In this document: one piece after another, positions 1 through 23,294 of the stretch
Layout: each line of letters opens with the position of its first letter
How positions within the stretch are numbered: the stretch's first letter is position 1
DNA from: a virus
Reading direction: 5' to 3' (one strand)
Length of the DNA: 31,832 nucleotides
IMG/VR virus record: IMGVR_UViG_3300042392_000862
Span: 1 to 31,832 of that record
Program-made: the position numbers and the translations under genes
The notes under the pieces: model-generated
What the model was told of the DNA's origin: nothing
The model's input: only the letters and a program-made list of their open reading frames with translations
Database searches by the model: none

Positions 1-53
1 GTGCCGACTCCGGGGAAAACCCACAAAAACTAAAACCAAACAAGGTAACGAGC

Positions 54-254
54 ATGAAAGGCTATGAATCAACCCCGACCGTCAAGGATGTCCACAGTCC
101 AGCCGGTCAACCTTTCCATGCTCAGAGATCCTTCGCCGACATGCCAGATTGCCCGTTCTGCCGATACGGAACGCCGGTGGAATACAGCGACAAGTGGGTC
201 TGCATTGACTGCGGAGCCAAGATGACCAAGGATCAGATTATCCAAAAACCATGA
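54..254 (+). CDS. Small zinc-ribbon protein
   Basis: A 66-residue protein with two cysteine pairs, C33-x2-C36 and C50-x2-C53, a classic treble-clef or zinc-ribbon spacing. The C-terminal half (CPFC...CIDCGAK) looks like the small zinc ribbons of phage Lar-type restriction-alleviation proteins, but the match is to the fold only and no function can be assigned. The ATG follows an A/C-rich leader with a weak 'aagg', and its stop overlaps the next start as ATGA, so it is translationally coupled to the terminase small subunit. It may be the last gene of an operon entering from the left. Confidence 0.7.
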   Translation: MKGYESTPTVKDVHSPAGQPFHAQRSFADMPDCPFCRYGTPVEYSDKWVCIDCGAKMTKDQIIQKP

Positions 255-2842: not shown

Positions 2843-2857
2843 TTTGACTTTCGCCAC
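2843..2857 (+). promoter_or_regulatory. Late-module element TTTGACTTTCGCCAC, copy 1
   Basis: Exact 15-base sequence, ending 20 bases before the ATG of the gpW-like gene at 2878. It begins with a TTGACT that resembles a sigma70 -35 box, but no good -10 box follows at 16-18 bases. A GGAAAA stretch lies about 10 bases before the ATG and may be a weak ribosome-binding site. This is one of four identical copies. Confidence 0.7.
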
Positions 2858-2877
2858 TTATCGGAAAATCATTTCAC

Positions 2878-3156
2878 ATGGCTTCACCGTTTCGACAGGC
2901 ACAAGGTATCTTTCGCGCAATTCGCGGGAACTCGACGCTGATTGAAGCACAAAAAGCCGCATATCAAGCAGCCGCAGTTGCACTTACATCTACAACCGGT
3001 GGCATCCAAGTTGAATCTGCTACCGTCAACGGGCAATCTTTTTCTGGAAAAGCAACTTCTACGCCAGCTGAGCGTTTTGACGTGTTGCAAATACTCATGG
3101 GCATGATTGAACGCGATTCTGCCGGAAACCGCACTACCCGCGCACGATTCTTATGA
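2878..3156 (+). CDS. Head-tail joining protein (gpW-like)
   Basis: A 92-residue protein placed between terminase and portal, exactly where lambda gpW sits. The N-terminal half is helical (EAQKAAYQAAAVALTS), followed by a short beta segment (VESATVNGQSFSGKA), then a helix (PAERFDVLQILMGMIERD) and a basic tail (TTRARFL). This helix-hairpin-helix layout is that of gpW, which seals the packaged head below the portal. Assignment rests on layout and neighbourhood, not on strong identity. It is the first gene after element copy 1, so it probably starts a transcript or translation unit. Its end overlaps the portal start by ATGA. Confidence 0.66.
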   Translation: MASPFRQAQGIFRAIRGNSTLIEAQKAAYQAAAVALTSTTGGIQVESATVNGQSFSGKATSTPAERFDVLQILMGMIERDSAGNRTTRARFL

Positions 3157-4610
3157 TACTTGACCAATTCGGAAATGCTGCAACGTCCTACGCAAACCGC
3201 AGGCCATCACGTCACGCCAATTTAGGCGGAGGAGATCGGCCGAGTGAATCGCGAAACCTCCGCGATCTGCACAAGATCGTTACAAAATACGACAGGCAAA
3301 CGCTACAATCGGCAAGTCGAACGCTGTATTTAAACTCTCCTCTTATGGTCGGAGCATCTAACCAGATCGGGATTTACGCCGTCGGCAACGCATGGCTTCC
3401 GATTTACAAAGGCAAAGACAAAGAATTCGGTGACATTGCAAAAGAATGGTTAAAAGATGAATGGTATCCGATTTGTAACATCATCGGAGATATCGCTGAC
3501 TTTACATCCGACATGTTTATTGATTCCGTCTCGATGGATCGTGACGGAGAAGTTTTTGAGTATTTTACATCATCGCCAAGCGGATATCCACAGATACAGC
3601 AAATCCCATCTCACCGCATAGAAAGCGGCGGACTGCCTGACGGCATACAGCAAGCTGGCAAATACAAAGGATTTGATTTGTATGACGGCATCGTGTATTT
3701 CCCCAATACATCAATCCCCGTCGCATACTCATTGTGCGACGTTGACGGCAAGCATAAGCAGTTCATTGACAAGAAATTTATACTTCATGTCTTTGATCGC
3801 TACTGGCCAGAGCAACGCCGAGGACTTCCGCTTTTCTGGCACTCGTTAAACAACCTTCGCGACATTATGCAGAGCGAAGAATGGGAGCGTATGAACTTGC
3901 TTTCCATGTCATCGCTTAACTACACGGTCGAAAACGAATCGGGCGGTCCAGATATGGAAGAGCCTAGTTATGAACCGGCAACCGATTGCGGACACCTTGA
4001 TATTGAATATTTACAGGGCGGTCGAATCATGTATGCAAAAGCAGGATCTGGTGAGAAGATCACGCAGCATCAAAATTTCCGCCCCGGCAATCCTTGGCAT
4101 GAGTTTTACGACATGCAGGCGCGTCAATGTCTGGTCGGTGCTTGCTTACCCGCAACACTATGGAAGCCATCTGGTCAAGGCACAGCGCAGCGCGAGGACA
4201 TCGGCAAAGCTTGCCGGTTCGTTGAAGATCGTCAATCCACGCTTGAAAAAATCGGCAAATGGAGAGTTACAAAAGCCATTGCATGGGCGATGGAAAACGG
4301 ACGCGTGCCGATGTCTGACCAATGGTATAACTGGGGCTTCACCAAGCCGCCAAAACTCACGATTGACGACGGACGCAGCCTCAAGGAGAAGATGGCACTT
4401 TACAAAGACGGACTGGTCAACGCTACCTCTATTATGGGAGAACTTTCCACAGACTTTGACGAATCAATCGACGAGCGCACAGAGGAAGCCGCAAAGCTCC
4501 TTGTCAAGATTGCCGAGAAGAACGCCAAATATGGCGTGGAGATCGACCCGCGCAGCGTGAGACTTGTTACATCAAACGAACAACCAATTCAACAACCATT
4601 AGAACCATGA
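3153..4610 (+). CDS. Portal protein (lambda gpB family)
   Basis: Dodecameric portal at the capsid vertex through which DNA enters and leaves; 485 residues. The N-terminal segment DRQTLQSASRTLYLNSPLM...IGIYAVGNAW is the family signature of lambda-type portals (arginine-rich helix, 'N-P/S' turn, then the G-N that starts the wing). The middle (SMDRDGEVFEYF...IPSHRIES, about 128-165) and the later ...ATLWKPSGQGTAQREDIGKA (about 345-365) match the clip/stem parts of that family. Length is typical (lambda gpB 533 aa). Starts at an ATGA overlap with the gpW-like gene and overlaps the protease at its end in the same way. Confidence 0.9.
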   Translation: MILDQFGNAATSYANRRPSRHANLGGGDRPSESRNLRDLHKIVTKYDRQTLQSASRTLYLNSPLMVGASNQIGIYAVGNAWLPIYKGKDKEFGDIAKEWLKDEWYPICNIIGDIADFTSDMFIDSVSMDRDGEVFEYFTSSPSGYPQIQQIPSHRIESGGLPDGIQQAGKYKGFDLYDGIVYFPNTSIPVAYSLCDVDGKHKQFIDKKFILHVFDRYWPEQRRGLPLFWHSLNNLRDIMQSEEWERMNLLSMSSLNYTVENESGGPDMEEPSYEPATDCGHLDIEYLQGGRIMYAKAGSGEKITQHQNFRPGNPWHEFYDMQARQCLVGACLPATLWKPSGQGTAQREDIGKACRFVEDRQSTLEKIGKWRVTKAIAWAMENGRVPMSDQWYNWGFTKPPKLTIDDGRSLKEKMALYKDGLVNATSIMGELSTDFDESIDERTEEAAKLLVKIAEKNAKYGVEIDPRSVRLVTSNEQPIQQPLEP

Positions 4611-5656
4611 TTACGATTGAAAACAAAGGCGGAAAAGTGAAGCTTAACGAAGCGGTCACTGGAGACAGTATCAAACGCATGATTGACGAGATCGGGCGAC
4701 TTTTCGGCGCAAAAGCATCAGCAGAAGGCGCAGATTTTGGAGATATAATGAACTCAGCGGAAAACGCAGTTGATGTTCTAGAGATTGAAATCAATTCACC
4801 AGGTGGCAGCGTGTTTGACGGATACACAATCTATCAAGAGATCAAATCACTACGTGATCGCGGCGTGATGGTCAACGCTACGGTTACCGGAATGGCTGCA
4901 TCAATGGCATCCGTCATCTGCATGGCCTGCGACAAAATCTCTATGGTCAAACACGGTAGAATGATGATCCATGACGCATCCAGCGGAGCAGTCGGCAACG
5001 CGGAATCACTTCGCAAGACAGCTGATCTTTTGGAAGCAATCAGTGATGACATAGCAGTAATTTACAGTGACCGCACTGGAATGGATAAGGAAGAAGTTCG
5101 AGAAATGATGATGCGCGAAACATGGATGAATGCACGCGAGGCACTAGCCAACGGCTTCGTAGATGACGTGCTAGGCCAGCAAGTTGACATTCGCCAAGCT
5201 TCGGCTGAATCTTCACATATGAGCTTTCTTAATCGCCTCACAAATCCATCTTCCGAAGAGTCCATCGAGCGCATCGCCGCACTTGAAGCAGACATCACCG
5301 CGCAAGCCGCCGAATTTCAATCAAAACTTGAAGCTGCTGAAATGGCACTTCAAGAAGCCGCCGAAATCACCGCCCAGAACATCGAACTTCGCATTCAGGC
5401 AGAACTAGTCCCAACCTTGCAAGCCAAGATAGCCGAGCTGGAAGCAGCAAACGCAATCAACGCTGAAAAGATTGACACTGCCGCAGCGCAAAAGTTGGCA
5501 GCAATGGGACACGGCGAGCCGCTAGATCTTGGTTCAAACTCACCAATCGAAGAAACTAAAAACCATCTTCAAATTCTCGAATCACTTAAAGGCAAAGAGC
5601 GCAGCGAATACTACGCCGCACACTCTGCTGAAATCCGTTCACAAATCTCTAAATAA
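4607..5656 (+). CDS. ClpP-like prohead protease with scaffold-like C-terminus
   Basis: Serine protease that matures the prohead, 349 residues. The first 190 residues have a ClpP fold: EINSPGGSVFDG (61-72) for the oxyanion strand, TGMAASMAS with catalytic S99, MIHDAS with H122, and ETWMNAREALANGFVDD (171-187) where the third acidic residue falls (E171 aligns with the usual aspartate). Residues about 215-290 are a long alanine/glutamate-rich coiled coil, followed by a tail ending in ERSEYYAAHSAEI. This matches lambda gpC, whose C-terminal part is the scaffold Nu3. An internal start producing a free scaffold is possible (ATG at 5219 or 5341) but unproven. Confidence 0.86.
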   Translation: MITIENKGGKVKLNEAVTGDSIKRMIDEIGRLFGAKASAEGADFGDIMNSAENAVDVLEIEINSPGGSVFDGYTIYQEIKSLRDRGVMVNATVTGMAASMASVICMACDKISMVKHGRMMIHDASSGAVGNAESLRKTADLLEAISDDIAVIYSDRTGMDKEEVREMMMRETWMNAREALANGFVDDVLGQQVDIRQASAESSHMSFLNRLTNPSSEESIERIAALEADITAQAAEFQSKLEAAEMALQEAAEITAQNIELRIQAELVPTLQAKIAELEAANAINAEKIDTAAAQKLAAMGHGEPLDLGSNSPIEETKNHLQILESLKGKERSEYYAAHSAEIRSQISK

Positions 5657-5665
5657 CTAAATCAA

Positions 5666-6559
5666 ATGGCTACCATTTCATTCAACGACACAATCTTTGC
5701 ACAAGAGGCTCTCAAAGCCTTCACCGCAAAGCTCGCCCCGCTCCGCGCATTCTCCCGCTCGCTTGACGACTCGGCAAGAGGCAAAGGTGACGCAATCGTG
5801 GTTCCTTTCATCTCCGCGATGACTGCAACGACTTTCAACGCTACTTCTGCTAACTACCAAACCGGCGGCGGTGCAGTTACGCACAACACGGTCAACCTTA
5901 ACCAGCACAACATCGTCAGCTTCGACATCACCGACCTCCAGAACGCAAACAGCTCTGGCGCACGTTTTGACGAACTCGCAATGCAAGCTGGTCGCGCACT
6001 TGGTCAAAAAGTTCTGGAAAACATCTGGAAGCTCATCACCACCACCAACTTCGGATCCGCTTCGGTGACGACTTCTGAGTCCAACTACGGTTTGGCTCAA
6101 CTTATCGCACTTCGCGCAGTTCTTGCTGGTCGCAATGTTGATGTTGATCCGGGTGTTTGCTCTTTCATCCACAACACTGTGGTTGGAGCATCGCTCCTTG
6201 GTAACACCAACGTGCTTCAAGCATACGCAATCGGTGACAACCAAGCAGCACGTCAAGGTCAACTCGGTCAGCTTGTCGGTTTCCCAACTTACGAAACCAA
6301 CATCCTTCCAACCGCTGCAACTTCTCTTGTCTGCTTCGCAGCTCATCCAGATGCAATCAGCATCGCAATGCGCTACCTTGAGCCGCAAGCCGGTTCTGAG
6401 TATCTCGCAGTCGAGCGTGCAGCCGATCCATCCGGCATCGTGATGGGTTATCGCCGCAGCTTCGACACTGCAACTGGTCAAATGTTCGGTGCTTTCGAGT
6501 GCCTTTACGGAACAGCTACTGGTCTGACTCTCGGACTTGCATTCGGCACCAAACCATAA
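5666..6559 (+). CDS. Major capsid protein
   Basis: Main shell protein, 297 residues, HK97-type fold inferred. The N-terminal helix (NDTIFAQEALKAFTAKLAPLRAF) is followed by a long beta/E-loop-like segment (GKGDAIVVPFIS...FNATSANYQ), a spine helix (RFDELAMQAGRALGQKVLENIW, about 99-120) and the P-domain region ending in LVGFPTYETNILP and SIAMRYLEPQ. Codon choice is visibly more uniform (CTT, GCA, AAC, GGT) than in neighbours, as expected for the most abundant protein. It comes directly after the protease-scaffold gene, with no separate decoration protein. A rho-independent terminator follows 30 bases after the stop. The start has no Shine-Dalgarno (aaatcaaATG). Confidence 0.87.
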   Translation: MATISFNDTIFAQEALKAFTAKLAPLRAFSRSLDDSARGKGDAIVVPFISAMTATTFNATSANYQTGGGAVTHNTVNLNQHNIVSFDITDLQNANSSGARFDELAMQAGRALGQKVLENIWKLITTTNFGSASVTTSESNYGLAQLIALRAVLAGRNVDVDPGVCSFIHNTVVGASLLGNTNVLQAYAIGDNQAARQGQLGQLVGFPTYETNILPTAATSLVCFAAHPDAISIAMRYLEPQAGSEYLAVERAADPSGIVMGYRRSFDTATGQMFGAFECLYGTATGLTLGLAFGTKP

Positions 6560-6588
6560 TCTCTGGCATAGTTTGTAGTGTTACAAAG

Positions 6589-6619
6589 CACCGTCCTGTA
6601 AAAGGGGCGGTGTTTTTTT
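6589..6619 (+). terminator. Rho-independent terminator after capsid gene
   Basis: CACCGTCC (6589-6596) pairs with GGGCGGTG (6605-6612), 8 pairs with one G-T wobble, around an 8-base loop, directly followed by seven T. This is the clearest terminator in the window and separates the head genes from the glycosylation cassette. Confidence 0.88.
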
Positions 6620-6620
6620 A

Positions 6621-6648
6621 TTGTTAAAAATTCAAGAATTAGCATATT
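6621..6648 (+). promoter_or_regulatory. Possible promoter for the glycosylation cassette
   Basis: TTGTTA (6621-6626) and CATATT (6643-6648) are separated by 16 bases, each matching 4 of 6 consensus sigma70 positions. A promoter is expected here because a terminator ends the upstream transcript. The predicted start would leave a leader of only a few bases before the ATG at 6661. It is a weak match in AT-rich sequence and could be chance. Confidence 0.35.
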
Positions 6649-6660
6649 TCATCCATACAT

Positions 6661-8841
6661 ATGAAAAAAGCTAAACTCTCGCTTTCGGTGATAACTGGGA
6701 ATTGCGAAAACTACATCGAAAGGTTTCTTGATAAATTCCAACATCATTTCGATGAAGTTGTCATCGTCAGAGCAATTGGAAACCAAGAGCCAGACCGAAC
6801 GCTTGAGATCGCGCAAAGTCGCGGCTGCCGCGTCGGTGAGTATTTCAACAAGATCGGACATTGGAACCACGTCGATGATTTCGGTGCAGCTCGCAACGTA
6901 TCAGCCAACCTCGCTACTGGCGACTGGATCATGTGGGCCGACACCGATGACATTATGACAGATGATTCGGGTGATCAGATCAGGCAGTTGATTGCTGATA
7001 TTCACGACAAAGATGTTGACGGCGTATTGATGCGCTACGTCGTGCCAGAAGATAACATCATCAACTGGAGAGAAAGGATCTGGCGCAAAGGATCGGCGAT
7101 GTGGGAACACCCAGTCCATGAATGCTTAAAATTTAATGAAGGCACCAACCACATGAGATTCGATGGAGCCGAGATCGTGCATGCCAGCGAAAAACGCAGT
7201 GCATCTCGGGACGAACGCAATTTGCGGATTCTCGAATCAATACCTGAAAATCAAAGAACCGTGTCGCAGAAATTCCATACCTTCCAAAGCTTGATTGCAT
7301 TGGATCGGAATGATGACGCGATTGAATCCGCGCTTGAGTTCGTGCAATCCGAAGGCGTTGGCAGAAATGAGCTTTATGAGGCTTATTTTCAACTTGCTAG
7401 ACTTGCAGAAGATGAGGACAGCAAAAAACAAATGCTTCTTGCTGCACTTGCAACAGATCCAAGCCGGCGCGAGGCATACGGAGAACTTGGGCTGGCATCG
7501 ACAATTTCTGATGCACAGGCCGCGCTTGGCTGGACTGAGTCAATGATGGGGCTGGAGATGCCACCAGAGCCGCCGTGGAACCTCCGCAGACCTTATTACG
7601 GTTCACTCGGCATCGGGCTGCGTGGCATGGCTCTACGCGCAAGCAACCGCCGAGAGGAAGCCGACGCAATCGAAACAAATCATTTCATTCGAAACGGCGC
7701 AAAAATATCACTTCTCCACGCGACCCGAGGACGACCAGCGCAAGCCTGGCGATCGAGAATGGAATGGCTGAGATCCGCAACCAATCCAGATTCGATTGAG
7801 CATATCTTTGCCATTGATGTTGACGATGTGGATTCATACCCACTGACTAACGCCAGATGCGTCATCAGCACTCACAACTCGGGCTGCGTCGGAGCATGGA
7901 ACGCAGCGGCCCAATCATGCAAGGGAGAGATACTGATTCAACTCAGCGACGACTGGAAACCATTCCAAGGCTGGGACGAAGCCATTCTTCGCGCCATTGG
8001 CGACACATCGAAGCCTAAAGTTTTGGCGATTTCTGACGGTTTCAGAAAAGATGACCTGCTCTGCATGGCGATCATCACCCGCGCACGTTACATCGAGCAG
8101 GGGCATTTCTTTCATCCAGAGTTCTTTTCAATGTTTTCGGATAATTGGTTTTCATACAAGGCCGCGCAGGAGGGCGTAATCATCGACGCGAGAAAGGAAA
8201 TCATTTTCGAGCATGTTCACCCTGCATTCGGAAAAGCAGAATCAGATCCGACCTACGAGCGGAGCAATGATCAGTATTACTACCTGACTGGGCAGGGCAT
8301 CTTCAATCGGCTAGTTACCAGAACTCAGGTATCGACTGATATTCACGGCTGGTTTGACTTCCGTGATGTGTATGATTACGTCGCCAAAATAATTCCAGAG
8401 GGAGGCAAGTTCGTCGAGGTCGGGGCGTGGAAAGGCAAAAGTGCGGTCTATTTCGCAGATAGGCTGGAGGACATCAAGAAAACCATTGATTTTAGCGTGG
8501 TTGATACCTTCAAAGGCGATGACGAAACTGGCAAACTCGATGTGCTGGAGGAATTCAAGAAGAACCGAGGCGACCGCAAGATCACGATCATTGAGGGAGA
8601 CAGCGCAGGATCAGCTGCACAATTCGCTGACGATGCCCTAGACGGGGTTTTCATCGATGCGGCGCATGATTACGCCAACGCAAAGCGAGACATCGAGGCA
8701 TGGCTACCGAAGGTCAAGCAAGGCGGATTTATCGGTGGACATGATGCTGATTCAGAAGGCGTATCAAAAGCACTAGAAACCCTCGGCATCAAATACAACG
8801 TGATCGGCAGATGCTGGATCAAACAACAAGAAAAACCATGA
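6661..8841 (+). CDS. Two glycosyltransferase domains + methyltransferase, one polypeptide
   Basis: A 726-residue multi-domain enzyme. Residues 1-190 are a GT-A/GT2 glycosyltransferase: SLSVITGNCENYIERFLDKF at the start, GAARNVSANLATGDWI, and the metal/sugar-binding ADTDD at 93-97. About 195-345 is helical and TPR-like (AYFQLARLAEDED...AALATDPSRREAYGELGLAS). Residues 347-555 form a second GT-A domain (ISLLHATRGRP, NSGCVGAWNAAAQSCKGEIL, QLSDDW 427-432). Residues 560-722 are a class I SAM methyltransferase of the Methyltransf_24 type (VEVGAWKGKS 585-594, VFIDAAHDY 663-671). It would transfer sugars and methylate a product, plausibly modifying capsid or tail protein. It lies between capsid and connector genes behind its own terminator, as an inserted cassette would. 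Confidence 0.83.
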   Translation: MKKAKLSLSVITGNCENYIERFLDKFQHHFDEVVIVRAIGNQEPDRTLEIAQSRGCRVGEYFNKIGHWNHVDDFGAARNVSANLATGDWIMWADTDDIMTDDSGDQIRQLIADIHDKDVDGVLMRYVVPEDNIINWRERIWRKGSAMWEHPVHECLKFNEGTNHMRFDGAEIVHASEKRSASRDERNLRILESIPENQRTVSQKFHTFQSLIALDRNDDAIESALEFVQSEGVGRNELYEAYFQLARLAEDEDSKKQMLLAALATDPSRREAYGELGLASTISDAQAALGWTESMMGLEMPPEPPWNLRRPYYGSLGIGLRGMALRASNRREEADAIETNHFIRNGAKISLLHATRGRPAQAWRSRMEWLRSATNPDSIEHIFAIDVDDVDSYPLTNARCVISTHNSGCVGAWNAAAQSCKGEILIQLSDDWKPFQGWDEAILRAIGDTSKPKVLAISDGFRKDDLLCMAIITRARYIEQGHFFHPEFFSMFSDNWFSYKAAQEGVIIDARKEIIFEHVHPAFGKAESDPTYERSNDQYYYLTGQGIFNRLVTRTQVSTDIHGWFDFRDVYDYVAKIIPEGGKFVEVGAWKGKSAVYFADRLEDIKKTIDFSVVDTFKGDDETGKLDVLEEFKKNRGDRKITIIEGDSAGSAAQFADDALDGVFIDAAHDYANAKRDIEAWLPKVKQGGFIGGHDADSEGVSKALETLGIKYNVIGRCWIKQQEKP

Positions 8842-9059
8842 GTCACAAAGGAAGCTGGAGCCGAGTTAAAGATAAAAAAGCGTGGGATGATTGCCCACTT
8901 TGGAAAAACAAAGAAAAGAAAAAACAAAATGAAACTATCAATACTGACACCGACCATCCCGAGCAGGGAAAAACAAGTCAAAGCACTAAGCGAAAAACTG
9001 GCAAAGCAGATCGGAATACAATACGGAGTGCCGATAGTGGAGCACTTAATCCTGAGTGA
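8838..9059 (+). CDS. Possible small overlapping protein
   Basis: A 73-residue frame starting at an ATGA overlap with the preceding gene. Its first 30 residues (MSHKGSWSRVKDKKAWDDCP) resemble small phage proteins that begin MSxGSxxRPxD. From residue about 31 it overlaps the next glycosyltransferase gene in another frame, and that part looks like a shadow. If real, the 5' half fills the otherwise unexplained 87 bases between the two sugar genes. Function unknown; the C-terminal half may carry no selection of its own. Confidence 0.45.
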   Translation: MSHKGSWSRVKDKKAWDDCPLWKNKEKKKQNETINTDTDHPEQGKTSQSTKRKTGKADRNTIRSADSGALNPE

Positions 9060-9501
9060 CAACCGCACCCGCAGCATTGGGGAGAAACGGCAGTCATTGG
9101 TTGATATAGCCAACTGCGAATATATTGCGTTTTGCGATGACGATGACGACGTATCCGATGATTACGTTTCTGAGATATTGAAAGCCATTGAGACAAGAGC
9201 CGATGTCATCACGTTCAATCAGAAAGCAATTTACAACGGTCTGAAAAGCGAGGTGCATTTTGGTATCAAAAACCAAGACGGCCAGTTTAACCCGGGCGGC
9301 ATCACCCTTCGCGGACCGTGGCACGTTTGCGCATGGAATCGCCAGAAGGTCAAAGGCTGCGTCTTTGGGTTCAGCAATTACGGCGAGGATCTAGTCTGGT
9401 GCCATCAAGCCAGAAAGCGGATCAAGACCGCGCATCACATCAACAAGGTCTTGCACACCTACATACACGACGCGGCAACGACCGCGGCGCCCGAGCTTTG
9501 A
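8929..9501 (+). CDS. GT2-family glycosyltransferase
   Basis: A single-domain, 190-residue GT-A glycosyltransferase. It starts with the beta strand KLSILTPTIPSREKQ, has TRSIGEKRQSLVDIANCEYI for nucleotide-sugar binding, and an acidic metal-binding run CDDDDD at 69-74. NPGGITLRGPWHV and NYGEDLVW provide the acceptor-side loop and the catalytic-base region (ED). The ATG at 8929 was chosen over one at 8887 because the protein family starts at the first strand and the leader 'aaaaacaaaATG' fits other starts here. With the 726-aa enzyme it forms a virion- or DNA-glycosylation cassette. Its stop codon TGA lies inside the second TTTGACTTTCGCCAC element. Confidence 0.84.
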   Translation: MKLSILTPTIPSREKQVKALSEKLAKQIGIQYGVPIVEHLILSDNRTRSIGEKRQSLVDIANCEYIAFCDDDDDVSDDYVSEILKAIETRADVITFNQKAIYNGLKSEVHFGIKNQDGQFNPGGITLRGPWHVCAWNRQKVKGCVFGFSNYGEDLVWCHQARKRIKTAHHINKVLHTYIHDAATTAAPEL

Positions 9502-9511
9502 CTTTCGCCAC
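9497..9511 (+). promoter_or_regulatory. Late-module element TTTGACTTTCGCCAC, copy 2
   Basis: Exact copy, 20 bases before the ATG at 9532. Its TGA is the stop codon of the upstream glycosyltransferase. An AGAAAA stretch lies roughly 10 bases before the ATG. No convincing -10 box. Confidence 0.7.
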
Positions 9512-9531
9512 AATCTAGAAAAAACTACTTC

Positions 9532-9867
9532 ATGTCTATTTTGAGCGATTTCATTGATACAGTTGCGCCTATTGCTCGAACCGTAATTGGAGCAGAAACG
9601 CTATCCATTGCCGGTGGCACAGCTATTAGTGGGACTTATTCAGAAGCCAGACATTCAAGGGATTACGAAGAAGGCGGATTCGAGCGGGACGCAATGCTGG
9701 ATTTTGTGGTTCAAACAGCTACGTTCTCCACTGCTTACACCGCAGCAGTAAGCAGCTACCTCGGCAAAGCAGCCGCAGGTCGTGGCGATACCTGGCGTGT
9801 CTCATCCATCAGCAAAGGTGCATTTTTTGTTACAGTTGGGCTGGTATCTACCAACAAATCAGCATGA
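9532..9867 (+). CDS. Head-tail connector/stopper-like protein
   Basis: A 111-residue protein, first gene of the connector-tail module. It is mostly beta (ETLSIAGGTAISGTYSEARHSRDYEEGGFERD...WRVSSISKGAFFVTVGL), which suits small barrel-like head completion proteins such as lambda gpFII or ring 'stopper' proteins. The assignment is from position (after head genes, before tail completion and terminator) and size; sequence alone is not diagnostic. Its 3' end overlaps the next gene by ATGA. Confidence 0.55.
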   Translation: MSILSDFIDTVAPIARTVIGAETLSIAGGTAISGTYSEARHSRDYEEGGFERDAMLDFVVQTATFSTAYTAAVSSYLGKAAAGRGDTWRVSSISKGAFFVTVGLVSTNKSA

Positions 9868-10631
9868 TTAAAACTGACATAGATACCAAGGGGATAGAGC
9901 GGCAAATTATGTCCATGGCTAAAGACTTTGGTGAGTCGAATGAAGCGGCGATTTGTCGATGGGGCGTTGCTACCTGCCGCAGCCTAGTGAAAGGCACGCA
10001 GGCTTGGGGAGATGGCACGGAAGCCAAAACAAAACAGGAAGAGTCTATAAAAAAAGATGCAAACAGGGCGGTTTATAGCGTATCTAAAGGCACATACGTT
10101 AATGGCGTAGCAAGTGGAAAACTGTCTGGATTAGTCATCAATGGTCAGCTTGTAACATTCAGTCCAGATCGCATCTTAAAAACTCCTGAAGAAATCAACG
10201 CATTTATCGACCGCAAACAGACGAGCAAGAGAAACCGCGTTCCTACGATGAAGCGCAACGAAAAAGGCATTACATCAAGCGCAGCAATGACAAGGGCGTT
10301 GCGTATCCGCTTCAAGAACGCAGGCAAAGCAAAAGGCGGATGGATTGGAGCTGGTTTAGCTATCGGAGCAAAGCAACGCAAAGGCTCACGCCTGACTATT
10401 GGCAAGAACATTGCTGGATACGCCCACAAGTTTAAAAGTGGAGGATCTGCCCAGTTACTACCCTCACAATGGAATCCAATTGGAAAGATAATTAATAACA
10501 TCAAATACGTTTCAACCGATTACGTGTTAAAAAAATCCGACGCAATTGATGCAATCAACACCGGCGGTCGCATGACTGTAAAATGGTATGAATCTGCAAT
10601 GGCAGCAAAGCTTAAACGAAAAACAAAATGA
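9864..10631 (+). CDS. Tail completion protein (gp10/gpZ-like), probable
   Basis: A 255-residue basic protein between the connector and tail-terminator genes, where HK97 gp10 or lambda gpZ is found. The N-terminus (MIKTDIDTKGIERQIMSMAKDFGESNEAAICRWGVAT) has the 'D..GIE..l..la' pattern of such proteins. A central lysine/arginine-rich stretch (RKQTSKRNRVPTMKRNEKG, about 113-131) may bind DNA or the head. Longer than most gp10 members (about 140 aa). ATGA overlaps at both ends. Function is inferred from gene order. Confidence 0.55.
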   Translation: MIKTDIDTKGIERQIMSMAKDFGESNEAAICRWGVATCRSLVKGTQAWGDGTEAKTKQEESIKKDANRAVYSVSKGTYVNGVASGKLSGLVINGQLVTFSPDRILKTPEEINAFIDRKQTSKRNRVPTMKRNEKGITSSAAMTRALRIRFKNAGKAKGGWIGAGLAIGAKQRKGSRLTIGKNIAGYAHKFKSGGSAQLLPSQWNPIGKIINNIKYVSTDYVLKKSDAIDAINTGGRMTVKWYESAMAAKLKRKTK

Positions 10632-11050
10632 CAACTGACAAACTACTTGACGCATGGAAACGCTGGATTCAACGAGGAACCACCCTGCCCGTGGCTATGC
10701 GCGACACTGAGGACACAAAGGCATACCCCGGGATCTACATCGAGGGAGACAGCGTGTCTCGCTTTGAATCAGGCGGCGTGCAAGATGGGAACATCTTCAA
10801 GATTGAATGGGAAACCAAGCTGGTTACAACGCCAGGCGAAGATGCACAAGAAGCCACTAGCAAGGCAGCTCATGACGTGTTGAGGAACGCACTGGCTGAA
10901 TATATTGAATCAGATCAGGCAGAAGCATGGATGGACGGGCAAATTGGAATACGTGTCTTTCAGCTACTTGTCGATTCTCCGGAAACAACCGAAGCAGATG
11001 GATACCGTGTGACGACTTGGAAGGTGACGGCTATATCCTGCGCAATTTGA
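10628..11050 (+). CDS. Tail terminator protein (gpU-like), probable
   Basis: A 140-residue protein. An N-terminal helix (TDKLLDAWKRWIQRG) precedes beta strands and a helix (EATSKAAHDVLRNALAEYIES) and ends with a strand (GYRVTTWKVTAISC), the alpha/beta layout of tail terminators that cap the tail tube. It sits directly before the tail tube gene, as lambda U precedes V. Its stop TGA (11048-11050) is inside the third TTTGACTTTCGCCAC element. No catalytic motifs expected. Confidence 0.6.
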   Translation: MTTDKLLDAWKRWIQRGTTLPVAMRDTEDTKAYPGIYIEGDSVSRFESGGVQDGNIFKIEWETKLVTTPGEDAQEATSKAAHDVLRNALAEYIESDQAEAWMDGQIGIRVFQLLVDSPETTEADGYRVTTWKVTAISCAI

Positions 11051-11060
11051 CTTTCGCCAC
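11046..11060 (+). promoter_or_regulatory. Late-module element TTTGACTTTCGCCAC, copy 3
   Basis: Exact copy, 21 bases before the ATG of the tail tube gene at 11082. It contains the stop codon of the upstream gene. A TGGAA stretch lies 9-13 bases before the start. Confidence 0.7.
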
Positions 11061-11081
11061 AGTTGGCTGGAATCTTCATCC

Positions 11082-11507
11082 ATGGCCGCACGCAACTTTT
11101 CCCTTGCCCGTTTTGGAACCGTCGATGAAACTTCGGCAACTGGAGTTTTTCTCGGTGAAATCACCTATGACTATCAATCTGACAAAGTTGATATCAAGAA
11201 CCACATCAGTTCTACTGTAGGATTCACGCTTTCCGACCCACGCACCGACATCAAACTTTCTGGAGTTGTGACGACCAAGACAGCAGGATTTACTCCAGCT
11301 ATCGCATCGGTTCTTACGCTTGCAAACAGTTCATCTGATACGCTTGGACTTAATACAAAAGGCATCTTTGGAACCGCAGTCACGAATGCTGGCGTGGTAG
11401 TCTATGCAGCGAGCTTAAAACGCGTAAACAGCGATTTTGAGACAGGTGATTGTTCCGCGATCTTCCATCCAGAAGTTGTGACAAACTCACCAGTCAGCTT
11501 AACTTAA
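11082..11507 (+). CDS. Major tail tube protein, probable
   Basis: A 141-residue, beta-rich protein with few charged residues and many S/T/V, typical of tube subunits that stack as hexameric rings. Strands are suggested by GVFLGEITYDYQSDKVDIKNH, DIKLSGVVTTK and GVVVYAASLKRVNS. Position between tail terminator and the frameshifted chaperone/tape-measure genes is where siphovirus tube genes lie. It has its own upstream copy of the 15-base element, fitting a need for high expression. Smaller than lambda gpV (246 aa), lacking the extra Ig-like domain. Confidence 0.66.
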   Translation: MAARNFSLARFGTVDETSATGVFLGEITYDYQSDKVDIKNHISSTVGFTLSDPRTDIKLSGVVTTKTAGFTPAIASVLTLANSSSDTLGLNTKGIFGTAVTNAGVVVYAASLKRVNSDFETGDCSAIFHPEVVTNSPVSLT

Positions 11508-11525
11508 AACCTTACACTATGAAAT

Positions 11526-12083
11526 ATGACAACAAACCTCTCAACCCATCGAACGGGTGACATCAACTTTTTCTCGGCGTGCATGACTATAGGCATTGCG
11601 CCGTGTTTTCCTGAGCCTTCAGAAGTAATCCAGTGTGACGATGGGCATGATTACCTTTCTTTTCGTCTGAATTCATTTTCGGAATGCGGACAATACGAAA
11701 CGAAAGAGATCAATAGAGCATGGACTCACAAAGAGGCTTTCCGCCGTGAATTTCCATCACATCCGTTCATGCTTATTATGGACTTTATCGATCACTCACG
11801 AGGAGCAAAATCAAAACCTGATTGGATCGAAAAAGCAGCATCTTTCCTCGGCATCGCACGAGACAGCATTCGCAAGGATTTAGATCGAGTTTCAGCTTTA
11901 GAGAATGAACTGCCTGAATCTCCTTTGACTTACATCTGCTGTTATATAGTCAACCGCTGGGCGGCAATCGACTGGGCGAAAAACGCTATCCCTAAAACCG
12001 TTGTCAACGCCGGACCATCAATCGTAATGCTCGACGGCAAGCTTCCTAAAAAGAAACAGCTTCAACTTCTTTCTTACCTATGA
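11526..12083 (+). CDS. Hypothetical tail-region protein (start uncertain)
   Basis: A 185-residue protein of unknown function between tail tube and chaperone genes. Notable are PFMLIMDFIDHSRGAKSKPDWIEKAASFLGIARDSIRKDL (a helix-turn-helix-like middle) and a hydrophobic C-terminal third. Two starts compete. ATG 11526 is in frame, but the better-looking start context (ccttacactATG) is at 11519 in another frame, whose 13-residue reading ends at GGG-TGA-C (11555-11561), a site where a +1 slip would join the two frames. Last bases overlap the chaperone ATG. Confidence 0.6.
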   Translation: MTTNLSTHRTGDINFFSACMTIGIAPCFPEPSEVIQCDDGHDYLSFRLNSFSECGQYETKEINRAWTHKEAFRREFPSHPFMLIMDFIDHSRGAKSKPDWIEKAASFLGIARDSIRKDLDRVSALENELPESPLTYICCYIVNRWAAIDWAKNAIPKTVVNAGPSIVMLDGKLPKKKQLQLLSYL

Positions 12084-12463
12084 AATCAGCACCCGCATAC
12101 GCAACACCGCAGACAGTATCTGGCCACAAGGTTTATCCATGCGCCTATGGTCACATCCATTGGCTAACCGAGCGCAAGAACCCATTGATGACGCAGAAAG
12201 GAAATGTCGATGATTACAGCCTAGCTGAAATCTGCTTCGCCTTTACGACTGACCCCAAGAGCCTCCAGAACGTCAAAGGAGCGCAAGCTAAGGCACGCGT
12301 GACGACTTTCCTCATGGAGTCTACAAGCAAGGTTTTAGTGGCACTCTGGACGCACGCAAGCAAAGAAATTGAGAACTACTTCGCCTCAATGACCGTGCCA
12401 AAAAAAGCCCCGGCGCAGGCAATCAAAAAGCGCAAGCCTGCGACCCGTGCGCGGAAGCGGTAA
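12080..12463 (+). CDS. Tail assembly chaperone, unshifted form (gpG-like)
   Basis: The 127-residue zero-frame product of the tail chaperone gene. It has a mixed alpha/beta N-terminal domain (TVSGHKVYPCAYGHIHWLTERKNPL) and a helical part with a basic C-terminal tail (KKRKPATRARKR). Known gpG-type proteins bind the tape measure and tube subunits during tail assembly and are not in the finished virion. The assignment depends on the frameshift signal within it and its position directly before the tape measure. Confidence 0.72.
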   Translation: MKSAPAYATPQTVSGHKVYPCAYGHIHWLTERKNPLMTQKGNVDDYSLAEICFAFTTDPKSLQNVKGAQAKARVTTFLMESTSKVLVALWTHASKEIENYFASMTVPKKAPAQAIKKRKPATRARKR

Positions 12464-12672
12464 TCATTTACACCCTCGGAAAATCCAACCTCAGCAGCGA
12501 TCAAATCCTTTATGAACTACCCGCAGCATTCGTTAACCAGCTCATGTCTTGCGCTTGGATCGAGGCGGGGCGTGAGATCGAAGGCATTGCGCAGCGAGGC
12601 AAGATTTCCGAGGACATCAACGCCAAGCTAGCGGCAATAGCGAGACGACCAAAACCGAAATTCAACTTCTAA
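12080..12672 (+). CDS. Tail assembly chaperone, -1 frameshift form (gpGT-like)
   Basis: A -1 slip at A_AAA_AAA (12400-12406) joins 109 zero-frame residues to 88 residues in the -1 frame, ending at TAA 12670-12672: about 197 aa. The extension reads as a normal protein (EAVIIYTLGKSNLSSDQILY, FVNQLMSCAWIEAGREIEGI, ISEDINAKLAAIARRPK). Without it, 209 bases between the chaperone stop and the tape measure would be an unexplained gap that is open in exactly the right frame. This reproduces the G/G-T arrangement conserved in long-tailed phages, where the T part recruits the tube protein. Confidence 0.85.
12400..12442 (+). promoter_or_regulatory. Programmed -1 ribosomal frameshift signal
   Basis: The slippery heptamer is seven A at 12400-12406, read A AAA AAA in the zero frame (Lys-Lys) and followed by G. 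Seven bases downstream, CGCAGGC (12414-12420) pairs perfectly with GCCTGCG (12436-12442) over a 15-base loop. Slippery site, 7-base spacer and stem are the three parts expected of a bacterial -1 signal. A weaker secondary site, C AAA AAG at 12424-12430, lies in the loop. Confidence 0.85.
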
Positions 12673-12677
12673 ACACC

Positions 12678-13949
12678 ATGGCCATCAGCACCACGTTCAC
12701 CCTCAAATTCGCAGGCGCAGCTGTCGAGCGCGGACTAGCTCGCGTGCAATCTGCTTTCAAGTCACTTGGCGGCGTGGCGATGAACGTTGGCAAAAGCCTA
12801 CTTTCACCGTTTGCAGCTCTGACTGCGCTACTTGGAACCGGAGCATTGGTATCTGGGTTGATGTCTTTCGTCAAAGGATCATCTTCAGCAGCTGCATCCG
12901 TAGAGGATTTAACCATTCAACTTGAAGTTTTGACAGGTAGCTTTGAAACAGCCAAAAGCCTTATCAAGCAATTCCGTGAAGAAGAAAAAAAATCCGCTTT
13001 GAATCTTGAAGATTATTCAAAGGCAGCAAAAACAATTTTGGCTTTTGGCGGATCAGTTCAAGACATCATGCCGACTCTCAGAATGCTTGGCGATGTGTCC
13101 ATGGGCAATTCTGACAGGTTTGGAAGCCTTGCACTTGCCTTTGCTCAAACTACTGCGTCGGGCAGGCTCATGGGTCAGGAGGTTTTGCAATTCGTCAACG
13201 CTGGATTTAACCCGCTTGAACAGATTTCACGCGATACCGGTCGATCAATGAAAGACTTAAAAAAAGACATGGAAGATGGAGCAATTTCCGTTGCCATGGT
13301 CAAACAAGCTTTTGCAAATGCGACAAGTATAGGAGGAAGGTTTTTCCGCGCAATCGACAAGGGGAGTTCTGGGACAAACGCCAAGATCAACCAGTTTGGA
13401 GCAGCAGTAACAGAACTCAAAGTTGCGTTCGGAACCGGATTTAATGACGGATTGAAAGTCGCATTGGATGCGGCGAACACTAAGCTGCCTCAACTCTTAT
13501 CAAAGTTCGCCGAGTTTGGAACGTTGATTGGGAAGACAATTCAGGAAGCGGTCGGTGGAGATATGACTCGGCTTGTAATGGTTGGAGAGCTAATTGGGAC
13601 AGCTATCGTTGGAGGAATGAAAATCGCCATAAAAGCAGGAGGTCGAGAACTTGCACAAGCATTCTGGCAGACGCTGGAAGACTTTAACCCCATCAGAAAA
13701 ATAGGGTCTGAAGAATGGCGAAACTCTGGCAAAATTAGCGATGCCTTCAAAGAAAACAAAGGGGATGCGGTAAGGAAAGAAATTGAATCTTTGGTGCAAA
13801 CCCTTCGCCCGATGGCCAACGCCGCTCAAAATCCAACCCAATCAAAATACTTGGGACCCGGATCAGAGCAATCAGCAAGCATGATGGATGGAAACAGTGT
13901 TGTCAAAATCCTCAATAGCATCGACAGAAAACTTTCACCACAACCTTAA
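12678..13949 (+). CDS. Tape measure protein (short)
   Basis: Sets tail length and is ejected with DNA; 423 residues. After a short N-terminus there is a hydrophobic segment (LLSPFAALTALLGTGALVSGLMSFV, about 41-65). Residues about 76-215 match the common tape-measure N-terminal domain: LEVLTGSFETAKSLIKQF, YSKAAKTILAFG, LGDVSMGNSDRFGSLALAFAQ, GRLMGQEVLQFVNAGFNPL. A hydrophobic, glycine-rich stretch (about 300-320) follows. This is short for a siphovirus (lambda gpH 853 aa); at about 0.15 nm per residue it predicts a tail near 60 nm. It follows the frameshift product after five bases. Confidence 0.87.
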   Translation: MAISTTFTLKFAGAAVERGLARVQSAFKSLGGVAMNVGKSLLSPFAALTALLGTGALVSGLMSFVKGSSSAAASVEDLTIQLEVLTGSFETAKSLIKQFREEEKKSALNLEDYSKAAKTILAFGGSVQDIMPTLRMLGDVSMGNSDRFGSLALAFAQTTASGRLMGQEVLQFVNAGFNPLEQISRDTGRSMKDLKKDMEDGAISVAMVKQAFANATSIGGRFFRAIDKGSSGTNAKINQFGAAVTELKVAFGTGFNDGLKVALDAANTKLPQLLSKFAEFGTLIGKTIQEAVGGDMTRLVMVGELIGTAIVGGMKIAIKAGGRELAQAFWQTLEDFNPIRKIGSEEWRNSGKISDAFKENKGDAVRKEIESLVQTLRPMANAAQNPTQSKYLGPGSEQSASMMDGNSVVKILNSIDRKLSPQP

Positions 13950-13952
13950 ACC

Positions 13953-14777
13953 ATGGCAATAAAACAGTTTTTAAGTTCATCAACCAAGTGGGTGCCACAA
14001 CCCGGCTTTACCGTTGTCTACACCGAGAACGGAGGTATCGAGGCGAATCAGGACGTCCTAATACGCAACTCCGATCTTTCGACCGTAAAGGTTTTCAACC
14101 GTGGCGTTACATGGGAAACTATTTTCCCTGAAGTGCCGACAATTTATCGCTTTTTATCAATGAAAACTTTTGACCCGACAGACAGGGGAGATGGCTTTTC
14201 AATTCTTAAATGCACTTTCACTGGGTATCAATTTGTCAGCCCAGAATCGAGTGGAGTTGGGAGTGAAGTTGTCCAAGCAACCAGCACGCTTACTGGACAA
14301 CTTATATCTGAACCGCTTTCGTCGCATCCTAAGTGGGAACCATTATCGCAAACAGCAAAAACCGTGCTTGGGTATCTTCTGAGCGGCGAATATGTTTGGG
14401 ATGGAGAAGTCAACAAAGTAAAAATACTACTAGAAGATGGCAGTTTAGCTGTAAACGATACGCTATCTGCTTACATTGTTGGTGATGCTATCCATTTTGC
14501 AAACATCATCGCTGAAGGTGATCAAACATGGGAAAGAGGCGGCTGGACATACAGCTACCACACCGAGTCAGAAGAAGGATTTACAGCTGCACAGCTTAAC
14601 TCGCTTGGCAAGATTATCTCTGACCCTCCTGGCGACCCTCAAAAACCCGGTGCAGGCTGGACATGGATGCTTGCCTCACCAAATCAAAGCCAATCTGGAC
14701 TAGATCGGTTCATAAAGACACTCGATTTCCGATTGATCCAAGATAACGCAAAAAACCAGTTTCTTTATAATTACTAA
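13953..14777 (+). CDS. Tail tip/distal tail protein, unassigned
   Basis: A 274-residue protein directly after the tape measure, where distal tail or hub-forming proteins are encoded. The sequence is beta-rich and aromatic (WVPQPGFTVVYTENGG, RGVTWETIFPEVPTIYRFLS, WERGGWTYSYHTESEEGF). No catalytic motif or recognisable family was seen. Its position suggests a role corresponding to lambda gpM/gpL or a Dit-like ring. It ends in a TAATG overlap with the next gene, so the two are coupled. Confidence 0.6.
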   Translation: MAIKQFLSSSTKWVPQPGFTVVYTENGGIEANQDVLIRNSDLSTVKVFNRGVTWETIFPEVPTIYRFLSMKTFDPTDRGDGFSILKCTFTGYQFVSPESSGVGSEVVQATSTLTGQLISEPLSSHPKWEPLSQTAKTVLGYLLSGEYVWDGEVNKVKILLEDGSLAVNDTLSAYIVGDAIHFANIIAEGDQTWERGGWTYSYHTESEEGFTAAQLNSLGKIISDPPGDPQKPGAGWTWMLASPNQSQSGLDRFIKTLDFRLIQDNAKNQFLYNY

Positions 14778-15319
14778 TGAAATTCAGATTACAAGGCAGC
14801 GTAACAATTCCTAAGCGGCCATCTACGGTCGGAGGGCTAATAGGCTGGGCGCGCGGAGTAAACAAGGCATTGCAAGAGTTGCGAGACAGAAAAATTGTAG
14901 GATCGCTTGCAAGGAATCGATCATCATTGCCCAAACTTACGATCAAGCAAGGAACTGACGTTGACAAATTTCAGATCGTCCCTGGCTACGTCAACACCTT
15001 AATGCCTACGCTCTCTGGCACCGCGCTAAACAACGCCACCCCGCCCGAAATTACCGTCAATTCGGATATTTGGGTCTATGCGAAAGTGGTAGGCACATTT
15101 GGCAGTCCTGATACCTATGTAGTAACGATCCACACTGAATCAACTGACACTCCTCCATCTGAGGCGGTTTCATCCACTGCATTTACGTCTTACAATATAC
15201 TGGGAATAGTCTATTTTACTGCAGGGCCGCCTAATACCTTTGTAATTTCCAATTTTCATTCCGGAGGCAATCTTGGCGTCGAGTCTTTTGGAGCGATTAA
15301 CCTCTGGTGGAAAAAATGA
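14777..15319 (+). CDS. Hypothetical tail protein
   Basis: A 180-residue protein. The basic N-terminal part (KRPSTVGGLIGWARGVNKALQELRDRKI, about 13-40) includes an amphipathic helix, and the rest is beta-rich with many T, S, V and Y. It looks structural, possibly a tip or fibre-attachment component. Not recognised as a known family. It starts on TAATG and shares four bases with the next gene (ATGA). Confidence 0.6.
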   Translation: MKFRLQGSVTIPKRPSTVGGLIGWARGVNKALQELRDRKIVGSLARNRSSLPKLTIKQGTDVDKFQIVPGYVNTLMPTLSGTALNNATPPEITVNSDIWVYAKVVGTFGSPDTYVVTIHTESTDTPPSEAVSSTAFTSYNILGIVYFTAGPPNTFVISNFHSGGNLGVESFGAINLWWKK

Positions 15320-16083
15320 GCATCAAAGTGAAAACTGTGATGATCGAATCACCAAGGGCTTTTCAGATTTTCAACGATTATTATCTATCTGGAAGCGGAG
15401 CTTTAATAGAGCATTCTCCGATCTACACGGAATTCACAGCAGAGGTAAACATCAGCGGTAGTTACACGGAAAGCTACACGGCCGGAACTATTGTCTACGA
15501 TTACAGCTACACTGGCAGCAAGACTTGGACACGAATCCCGATAGTTGGAGACAGCACAGCTGGAATGATCAAAATTGGAGACTACCCCGGTCTAATCCCC
15601 ATAAATGGGGTTTATGAAACCCCAGAAGCTTCGGTCGCTCAGATCGGGGATCGAGGATCGAGTAATTTTTTTATGGGGCTTCGCGCTGCGCTGGACAAAC
15701 CGTCAGGACCCTTTGAAGACCCAGCCCCGATGTATGTGCCCCAATATCCCGCCGCCGTATTTTCTTACAACGGCTCAATCGAAACATCAGCAATAATAGG
15801 AACGCGGACGGATAACACATTATCTCCTCCCGTTGTCACTGACATAGTTGAAGACATCGGCGCCGGCATAAGCTTTAACTTTTTAAATCCAATAACAGAT
15901 CCTCGTCAAATTGTTGATGTGATGTCAATTCAAGGAGGGAGCGTTCCAAACTTCGTAGCTGTTATCAATGAGGATCTGACCGCTTGGAGTCCGGCAAAAT
16001 GGAGGGATTTCAGAGGGTCATACTCGGCAACGGAAACGAATGTAAACGGAATTACGACTACGGTGGATTTCACTTTAGGGTAA
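15316..16083 (+). CDS. Hypothetical tail protein, beta-rich
   Basis: A 255-residue protein of unknown function in the tail tip group. The start at 15316 (ATGA overlap with the previous stop) is preferred over an ATG at 15307. It contains tyrosine/serine/threonine-rich segments (ISGSYTESYTAGTIVYDYSY) typical of surface beta structure and no enzyme motifs. It is the last gene before element copy 4 and so closes the tail-tip group. Confidence 0.6.
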   Translation: MSIKVKTVMIESPRAFQIFNDYYLSGSGALIEHSPIYTEFTAEVNISGSYTESYTAGTIVYDYSYTGSKTWTRIPIVGDSTAGMIKIGDYPGLIPINGVYETPEASVAQIGDRGSSNFFMGLRAALDKPSGPFEDPAPMYVPQYPAAVFSYNGSIETSAIIGTRTDNTLSPPVVTDIVEDIGAGISFNFLNPITDPRQIVDVMSIQGGSVPNFVAVINEDLTAWSPAKWRDFRGSYSATETNVNGITTTVDFTLG

Positions 16084-16110
16084 AATCCAAGGATAAATAG
16101 GCGACTGAAA

Positions 16111-16125
16111 TTTGACTTTCGCCAC
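16111..16125 (+). promoter_or_regulatory. Late-module element TTTGACTTTCGCCAC, copy 4
   Basis: Exact copy, 20 bases before the ATG at 16146. It is followed by GGGAAAA about 10 bases before the start. This copy lies in a real intergenic gap (16084-16145), so it is not explained by coding constraint. Confidence 0.7.
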
Positions 16126-16145
16126 TTGACGGGAAAATGTAATTC

Positions 16146-17009
16146 ATGACTCTATCCGGCACAGAAGTTCGTTTTGGTATGATTGCGACAGCCGACCCCG
16201 GCGCGGTGAATGTTTCCGGTTCTCAAACAATCGGGACAGCACTTGCATCTGTTATTTACACAAACGCCCCGACCGTCGCCTATTCGATGGCGATGATCAT
16301 TCAGCCTGCTGGCGTGCTTACACTGAACACGTCAACCGGCGCAGTTACCGGCACGGTGGCAGGAACCGCACAAGTCGAGACAGCAACGATTGTTGCAGCC
16401 GCAGGCGCAACCACGGCAGGCGATTTGAACGTAACCGTGACATCTGCACTTGTCACAGGCTCGCCTTTACTGATCACAGTTCCGCTGCTTTTGGCTGACA
16501 ACACCGCCAGTCTAGTCGCTACAAAGGTCAGAGCAGCCTTAAACGCAAACGCAGCGATCACAGCACATTACACCGTCGGCGGATCGGGCGCAACTTATTC
16601 TCTTACAACCAGCGCGATTAACCACGCTGCAAACGATACCACGCTGAACATGGCACATGCCAACGGAACGTGTGTGGGGATTACAACCGCAGCAACCTCG
16701 GCAGACACAACGCCAGGTGTCGGCACCACCCGCGCATATAAATTCAACGGCACGGCATGGAACGCGACTGATAACGAAGGAATCGCATTGCCAACAATGA
16801 CCAAACTGCATTCGATGCTGCTCCGCTCTGCATCGACCAGCGGGACAATGGCAATTGGCGAAGGAACCAACTTATTGACCATTCCTGCACCGTTCGTTCA
16901 TCTTCAAGCATCGCAAGCAGGTGCACATCCATTTACAGGTGATTCGGTTACATTTACAGCTGCAACCGCACCAGTCACTTTGATTCTGGACATCCACGCA
17001 GGAGCATAA
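16146..17009 (+). CDS. Beta-rich virion decoration or tail protein
   Basis: A 287-residue protein very rich in A, T, G, V and poor in charge, probably a structural surface protein. Residues about 78-182 form a compact module (NVTVTSALVTGSPLLITVPL, ALNANAAITAHYTVGGSGAT, NDTTLNMAHANGTCVGIT) of a kind often added to phage tail tube or tail surface proteins. The flanking N- and C-terminal parts read as one beta sandwich interrupted by this module (GVLTLNTSTGAVTGT ... GVGTTRAYKFNGTAWN). It leads the fibre group and has element copy 4 upstream. Confidence 0.62.
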   Translation: MTLSGTEVRFGMIATADPGAVNVSGSQTIGTALASVIYTNAPTVAYSMAMIIQPAGVLTLNTSTGAVTGTVAGTAQVETATIVAAAGATTAGDLNVTVTSALVTGSPLLITVPLLLADNTASLVATKVRAALNANAAITAHYTVGGSGATYSLTTSAINHAANDTTLNMAHANGTCVGITTAATSADTTPGVGTTRAYKFNGTAWNATDNEGIALPTMTKLHSMLLRSASTSGTMAIGEGTNLLTIPAPFVHLQASQAGAHPFTGDSVTFTAATAPVTLILDIHAGA

Positions 17010-21094: not shown

Positions 21095-21140
21095 CTTGAT
21101 CCATTTTCCCCACCTGCAAAAAAAAGCTTTTCTTTTCCAT

Positions 21141-21154
21141 AGGCAATGCCTAGT
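21141..21154. promoter_or_regulatory. Near-palindromic operator-like site, left copy
   Basis: TAGGCAATGCCTAG: six-base arms TAGGCA/TGCCTA around one central A. The same 14 bases recur at 31164-31177. It lies 48 bases before the ATG at 21202. A homodimeric repressor or activator is the simplest reading. Confidence 0.6.
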
Positions 21155-22814: not shown

Positions 22815-23294
22815 ATGACAATCGCCGAAATTATCGCAGCCAAGAAAGCAGCAGCCGCCTCCGCAATCACCGCAGGCAAGGCGGCTCCACCACGCCAACC
22901 AACTGTTGACGACCTCGAAGTCGAGGCAGCCATCAACCGCATCGATCCGCCGGGAAAGCGCAGAGCGGGGCTGGTCATCAGCTCCAATACTCCATTGCCG
23001 AAAGCAGAGATCGCGGAGAAGGCAGCGCACAAGGAGAACCGCAGCCTCTCACAGACGAAGGGCGAGGCAATCCCGATGGTGCCGATCAACGCAGATCTAG
23101 AACAGACAACCTGGCACCAAGCACTAAACGCATTCGAGACAGAGCTTTGCTTGATGCGCGATCCTGTGGATTTGGAAGTGGCTTGGCTGGCAGTCCGACC
23201 ATACCGCGTTGGAATGCCGCCTATCCTCCTGCACCGGCTCCCGTGGATACTATGGGATCAACCGCACACGCCGACCGACCAAGAGCCGTTCTGA
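22815..23294 (+). CDS. Hypothetical early protein (donor A of the duplication)
   Basis: A 159-residue protein of unknown function. The N-terminal 100 residues are alanine/lysine-rich and low in complexity (TIAEIIAAKKAAAASAI), with a disordered look. The C-terminal 59 residues are a different, compact, tryptophan- and proline-rich segment (FETELCLMRDPVDLEVAWLAVRPYR ... WILWDQPHTPTDQEPF). That segment begins where the 548-bp duplication begins (base 23118). It therefore occurs again, fused to another N-terminus, in the gene at 23477. Confidence 0.62.
   Translation: MTIAEIIAAKKAAAASAITAGKAAPPRQPTVDDLEVEAAINRIDPPGKRRAGLVISSNTPLPKAEIAEKAAHKENRSLSQTKGEAIPMVPINADLEQTTWHQALNAFETELCLMRDPVDLEVAWLAVRPYRVGMPPILLHRLPWILWDQPHTPTDQEPF

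Follow-up and report, generated by a model that had tools for sequence, protein, structure and literature searches.

Two-box promoter-like sites at a fixed distance from late gene starts in a probable phage of Verrucomicrobia

Gene content and the five sites of the window

The window, i.e., the whole stretch of DNA analysed here, is 31,832 bases long and makes up an entire IMG/VR virus record. Family matches identified the small and large terminase subunits, a portal, a head protease, a major head protein and a tape measure protein. Among the isolated phages in the phage collection, the window portal matched only that of Verrucomicrobia phage P8625, with 25% identity. On the basis of this distant match, the virus is probably a phage of Verrucomicrobia. 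ATGA-type overlaps between neighbouring genes were found at 3153/3156, 4607/4610, 9864/9867 and 10628/10631.

The 15-mer TTTGACTTTCGCCAC had four exact copies on the + strand of the window (sites 1, 3, 4 and 5 in Table 1) and none on the - strand. With uniform bases, the chance expectation of four-copy 15-mers is about 3e-11. As described in the original prediction, the four copies were followed by an ATG at 20, 20, 21 and 20 nt, respectively, and the stop codon of the upstream gene was within the element at sites 3 and 4 and outside it at sites 1 and 5. The genes behind the four copies had been named gpW-like joiner, connector, tail tube and surface or fibre gene. Their placement around the portal, protease, major head protein and tape measure genes held up; the names found no support, the products of genes 2878, 9532, 11082 and 16146 having no PHROG match and the first three no Pfam match either.

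A weight matrix made from the sites of relatives recognized exactly five sites in the window, with scores of 41.6, 33.1, 32.8, 31.7 and 23.4. The top score in 20 simulated control windows was 17.7. The fifth and lowest-scoring site, located inside the protease gene (site 2), had three mismatches to the 15-mer and had previously been overlooked. When the window was scanned with a standard promoter consensus, site 1 was the only one of the five to be reported.

Table 1 Predicted late promoter sites and associated features in the window.
Feature	Position	Strand	Elements	Conservation or basis
Predicted late promoter site 1	2843..2880	+	-35 TTGACT 2844-2849; spacer TTCGCC conserved; -10-like AATCAT 2867-2872; ATG 2878 (gene before portal)	22/22 upstream regions, offset 34
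Predicted late promoter site 2, inside protease gene	5183..5221	+	-35 TTGACA 5184-5189; -10-like GAATCT 5207-5212; internal in-frame ATG 5219	codon identity 1.0 at both boxes
Predicted late promoter site 3	9497..9534	+	-35 TTGACT 9498-9503; -10-like AAAACT 9521-9526; ATG 9532; upstream gene's TGA in element	17/17 upstream regions, offsets 34/35
Predicted late promoter site 4	11046..11084	+	-35 TTGACT 11047-11052; -10-like GAATCT 11070-11075; ATG 11082; upstream gene's TGA in element	15/17 upstream regions, offset 35
Predicted late promoter site 5	16111..16148	+	-35 TTGACT 16112-16117; -10-like AAATGT 16135-16140; ATG 16146	14/15 upstream regions, offset 34
Predicted nested gene	5219..5656	+	C-terminal, putatively scaffold-like part of protease ORF	in-frame start after site 2 kept in relatives
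Terminator-like hairpin and T run	6585..6616	+	13 pairs	consensus match only

The terminator-like hairpin would end a head block transcribed from site 1. Just past it, still inside the head/tail block, two genes had glycosyltransferase family matches, and one a methyltransferase family match (6661-9501).

A further, near-canonical promoter of the form TTGACA-N16-GATAAT was found at 31155-31182, before gene 31204. Its spacer contained a 13-bp dyad, TAGGCAATGCCTA (31164-31176), which recurred at 21140-21152 and was found in several relatives as TAGGC-N3-GCCTA. Its sequence suggests an early promoter that carries a repressor operator. The window also contained 546 bases duplicated perfectly in tandem, with a period of 548 (23118-24211), one copy of which yields a shortened version (23477-23842) of gene 24025-24738. 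It is either a recent event or an assembly artefact.

Conservation of the two boxes and the site within the protease gene

We collected 48 related viral contigs by portal search and added more distant ones by profile searches. No encoded prophage relatives were found in the genome-collection scans. For the close relatives (group A), we took homologues sharing at least 65% protein identity and counted their distinct upstream regions. In these IMG/VR phages, the element was kept before the homologues of genes 2878, 9532, 11082 and 16146 (counts in Table 1), and it was absent upstream of the 18 other genes in the same comparison. In the counted regions the distance from TTGAC to the ATG was always 34 or 35. 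The close homologues of the four genes retained the element, with diverged sequence around it. Shine-Dalgarno-like motifs were nearly absent, being found in 0/22, 0/17, 0/17 and 2/15 of the regions, respectively. When the viral collection was scanned for exact 15-mers close to an ATG, that ATG stood at 20 or 21 nt for 52 of the 54 sites on related contigs, versus 1 of the 14 sites on unrelated contigs. Across the contigs compared, the predicted late-site layout is common to dozens of related viruses.

An alignment of 32 non-redundant sites on TTGAC showed no conservation upstream, with at most 0.34 bits in each column. Positions -1 to +10 were near-invariant (TTTGACTTTCGC), followed by a weaker C/A/C at +11 to +13. 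The original prediction had likened TTGACT to a -35 box, and this likeness is right, TTGAC being invariant and the sixth base T or A. It had also reported that the copies share no -10 box. Once the relatives were aligned, a second box became visible, exactly 17 nt after TTGAC[T/A]; the GGAAA-like stretch, earlier regarded as a signal near the start codon, is the variable, G/A-rich end of this spacer.

Counted from the start of TTGAC, an A at +24 and a T at +28 were each present in 38/38 sites, including those of the protease gene. They are positions 2 and 6 of the hexamer that follows the 17-nt spacer and correspond to -11A and -7T of sigma-70 promoters. The spacer measured 17 nt in every group A site, within the sigma-70 range of 16-18 nt. 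At position 1 of the hexamer there were 24 A, 12 G, 2 C and no T, so that the strict TANNNT form did not occur in group A and the -10 box has to be considered weak. The base at this position commonly varies in weak or activated promoters, so that the lack of T is compatible with the sigma-70 class. The ATG followed 5-6 nt beyond the second box, the hexamer beginning 11 or 12 nt before it. As read from the alignment, the full form of the site is T-TTGAC[T/A]-TTCGCC-N11-[A/G]ANNNT-N5-6-ATG.

The A and the T of the second box held their register with TTGAC irrespective of whether the ATG was at 34 or 35 (38/38). When the shifted class was aligned on the ATG instead, the T dropped to 10/15. The second box is therefore in register with the first one and not with the start codon, indicating that the two boxes belong together as a unit, as expected of boxes bound by a sigma factor, and that the ATG is placed beside this unit. 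Folding gave no signal of RNA structure at the sites, and no Rfam family was found there.

Site 2 had the same two-box layout within the protease ORF (4607-5656), before an in-frame ATG whose product would begin with MSFLNRL. This internal layout was present in the group A relatives listed and, in its group B form, in phages with 47-49% protease identity. In group C it was not found by the pattern used. Synonymous codon identity was 1.0 in the two boxes (codons 193-196 and 202-203); the intervening codons 199-200 had values of 0.65 and 0.53, the gene mean being 0.64. Some further stretches of the protease gene were likewise well conserved in codon use. Amino-acid changes from V to F and from I to F occurred at the internal site, and TTGAC[A/T]TTCGC was kept in both cases. 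The apparent codon freezing at both boxes is not readily explained by protein constraint alone.

Site 2 would drive a nested, putative scaffold gene, i.e., the C-terminal part of the protease alone. A similar arrangement is that of the lambda C protease and Nu3, where the scaffold is nested in-frame in the protease gene. Both have an in-frame internal start that would give only the C-terminal part; here, however, the internal start carries its own promoter-like site.

Corresponding sites in distant groups and in phage P8625

In the distant relatives, including P8625, a TTGAC or TTGC box was found 34-36 nt before the ATG of the corresponding genes, and the second halves of the sites were group-specific. 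Group B1 had TTGACWTTGCC and then CCAYT-like second boxes; group B2 had TTGACATTGCGGG and then CGCAYT; group C had TTGACA or TTGCAN and then GTTAGG. Some of the groups other than A lacked the T at hexamer position 6 or had the A one base earlier. The sites in these groups were chosen by their layout, and their consensus is less independent than that of group A.

P8625 had TTGACA or TTGCMA together with GTATCM-N7-GGATAC-like repeats. The distance from its -35-like box to the start codon was 36 at gp08, gp15, gp22 and gp23. At gp13, the annotated TTG start (9620) was the -35-like box itself, and an ATG was located 36 nt downstream (9656; record L099, 9620-9656). The true start of gp13 is probably this ATG. 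Neither promoters nor leaderless mRNA came up when the genome paper on P8625 was searched by words (PMC4642752).

A dimeric operator common to all groups was considered and not retained. Inverted repeats were recognized by eye in P8625 and group C, and group A had only a weak TTNNCC-N7-GGNNAA.

Interpretation of the sites and comparison with known systems

The original prediction had left several options for the element: a promoter, an RNA-processing site, or a site for a translation factor or late activator. The ATG lies 5-6 nt past the -10-like box, where transcription should start, and a leaderless late promoter is therefore the best reading. Leaderless transcripts are implied by the fixed distance between box and ATG, a point that the original prediction had passed over. 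We consider it likely that the 15-mer comprises the -35 half of a sigma-70-type late promoter, together with additional conserved bases of its spacer, and that this promoter produces leaderless mRNAs, probably with the assistance of a phage factor.

A sigma-70-family factor in the RNA polymerase would contact TTGAC as well as A and T in the second box. Transcription would be expected to start ~7 nt downstream of -7T, which places it at the A of the ATG, give or take about one base. Translation of the leading gene in each late block would then begin at a 5'-terminal AUG, and that of the later genes, many of them with ATGA overlaps, would proceed by coupling. The five sites would drive the portal/head block, the nested scaffold, the blocks from 9532 and from 11082, and the block from 16146. 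We infer that a phage factor probably assists these five promoters and confines them to late infection. Such a factor is likely because the -10 box is imperfect, the TTCGC in the spacer is near-invariant, and the early-type promoter at 31155-31182 is near-canonical and distinct from the late sites.

Three candidates for a late regulator were inspected and not retained: a zinc-ribbon ORF at window 3-254, recognized by eye ahead of the small terminase subunit, a small protein with a Bac_DnaA_C-like HTH match (L033, 2030-2455) and another with an HTH_23-like match (L012, 5603-5806). The latter two were upstream of terminase genes and under the Pfam cut-off, and none of the three was shown to be common to all groups.

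The same sites could instead be promoters read by an alternative or phage-remodelled sigma factor or RNA polymerase, and not by the host housekeeping sigma factor with or without a helper, in which case the code of that factor would consist of the long invariant stretch TTTGACTTTCGC together with the second boxes specific to each group. A run of twelve near-invariant bases is longer than a usual -35 box, the second boxes vary between phage groups at conserved gene positions, and the nearly canonical early-type promoter is unlike the late sites. This reading, the main rival, is nevertheless less likely, given that TTGAC, the 17-nt spacer and -11A/-7T are features of housekeeping sigma-70 promoters. 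A phage sigma factor was searched for in 11 partial records by region 4 alone, giving no Sigma70_r4 match above the cut-off and three weak ones below it.

It is improbable that transcription starts further upstream and the element is a translation-initiation signal on the mRNA, acting, e.g., by pairing with 16S rRNA or through a phage protein. Its distance to the start codon is fixed, also at the nested start, and CTTTCGCCAC might presumably pair with a conserved 16S rRNA stretch, GUGGCGAAGG. The register of the second box, however, follows the first box and not the ATG, no RNA structure signal or Rfam family accompanies the sites, and the putative pairing stretch is lost in groups B, C and P8625, whereas TTGAC is kept. 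An RNA-processing site separating the late messages would suit the location at block boundaries and the two overlaps with upstream stop codons, but is very improbable, as cleavage at site 2 would break up the message of the protease gene itself, the two-box spacing with -11A/-7T would stay unexplained, and the sites gave no signal of RNA structure.

Leaderless sigma-70-type promoters, the preferred reading, are of a kind already known, and the form in the window is a variant of them. Leaderless genes in Actinobacteria and Deinococcus-Thermus have a -10-type TANNNT hexamer at about 12 bp from the start codon, on its upstream side (PMC3160421, PMC12340547). The sites described here share with them a -10-type hexamer 11-12 nt before the start codon, the lack of a Shine-Dalgarno sequence and a predicted transcript start that coincides with the start codon. 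They differ by a strong, extended and invariant -35 box, by AANNNT or GANNNT in place of TANNNT, and by their association with phage late blocks. Some Verrucomicrobia are described as scarce in Shine-Dalgarno sequences (PMC10783764).

Compared with sigma-70 housekeeping promoters (TTGACA-N17-TATAAT), the late sites have in common TTGAC[T/A], the spacing of exactly 17 nt, and A2 and T6 of the hexamer. In contrast, the first base of their -10 box is never T, and their spacer carries a near-invariant TTCGC, which ordinary sigma-70 promoters do not need. Activator-dependent late promoters are found in other phages, such as those relying on Ogr in P2, C in Mu and the late factors of T4. As in those systems, several near-identical sites head the late blocks and the core promoter is imperfect. 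Here, however, the conserved bases belong to the core promoter itself rather than to the region upstream, and the activator is putative.

More tentatively, a widespread lineage of Verrucomicrobia phages may use leaderless late promoters in which the -35 box is fixed and the second half is rewritten per group together with a putative phage regulator. This would give the lineage its own late switch and a translation entry independent of Shine-Dalgarno sequences, including a separate promoter for the nested scaffold.

Little seems to be known about the transcription and translation signals of Verrucomicrobia phages, and the literature searched yielded no papers on mapped transcript starts in Verrucomicrobia. 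For five late genes, the signal predicts transcript starts to within one or two bases. It would correct gene starts, as for gp13 of P8625 and the nested scaffold, and it can serve as a marker of late blocks in uncultivated phages. Since the second half varies between groups while the gene positions stay the same, co-variation offers a way to the cognate regulator.
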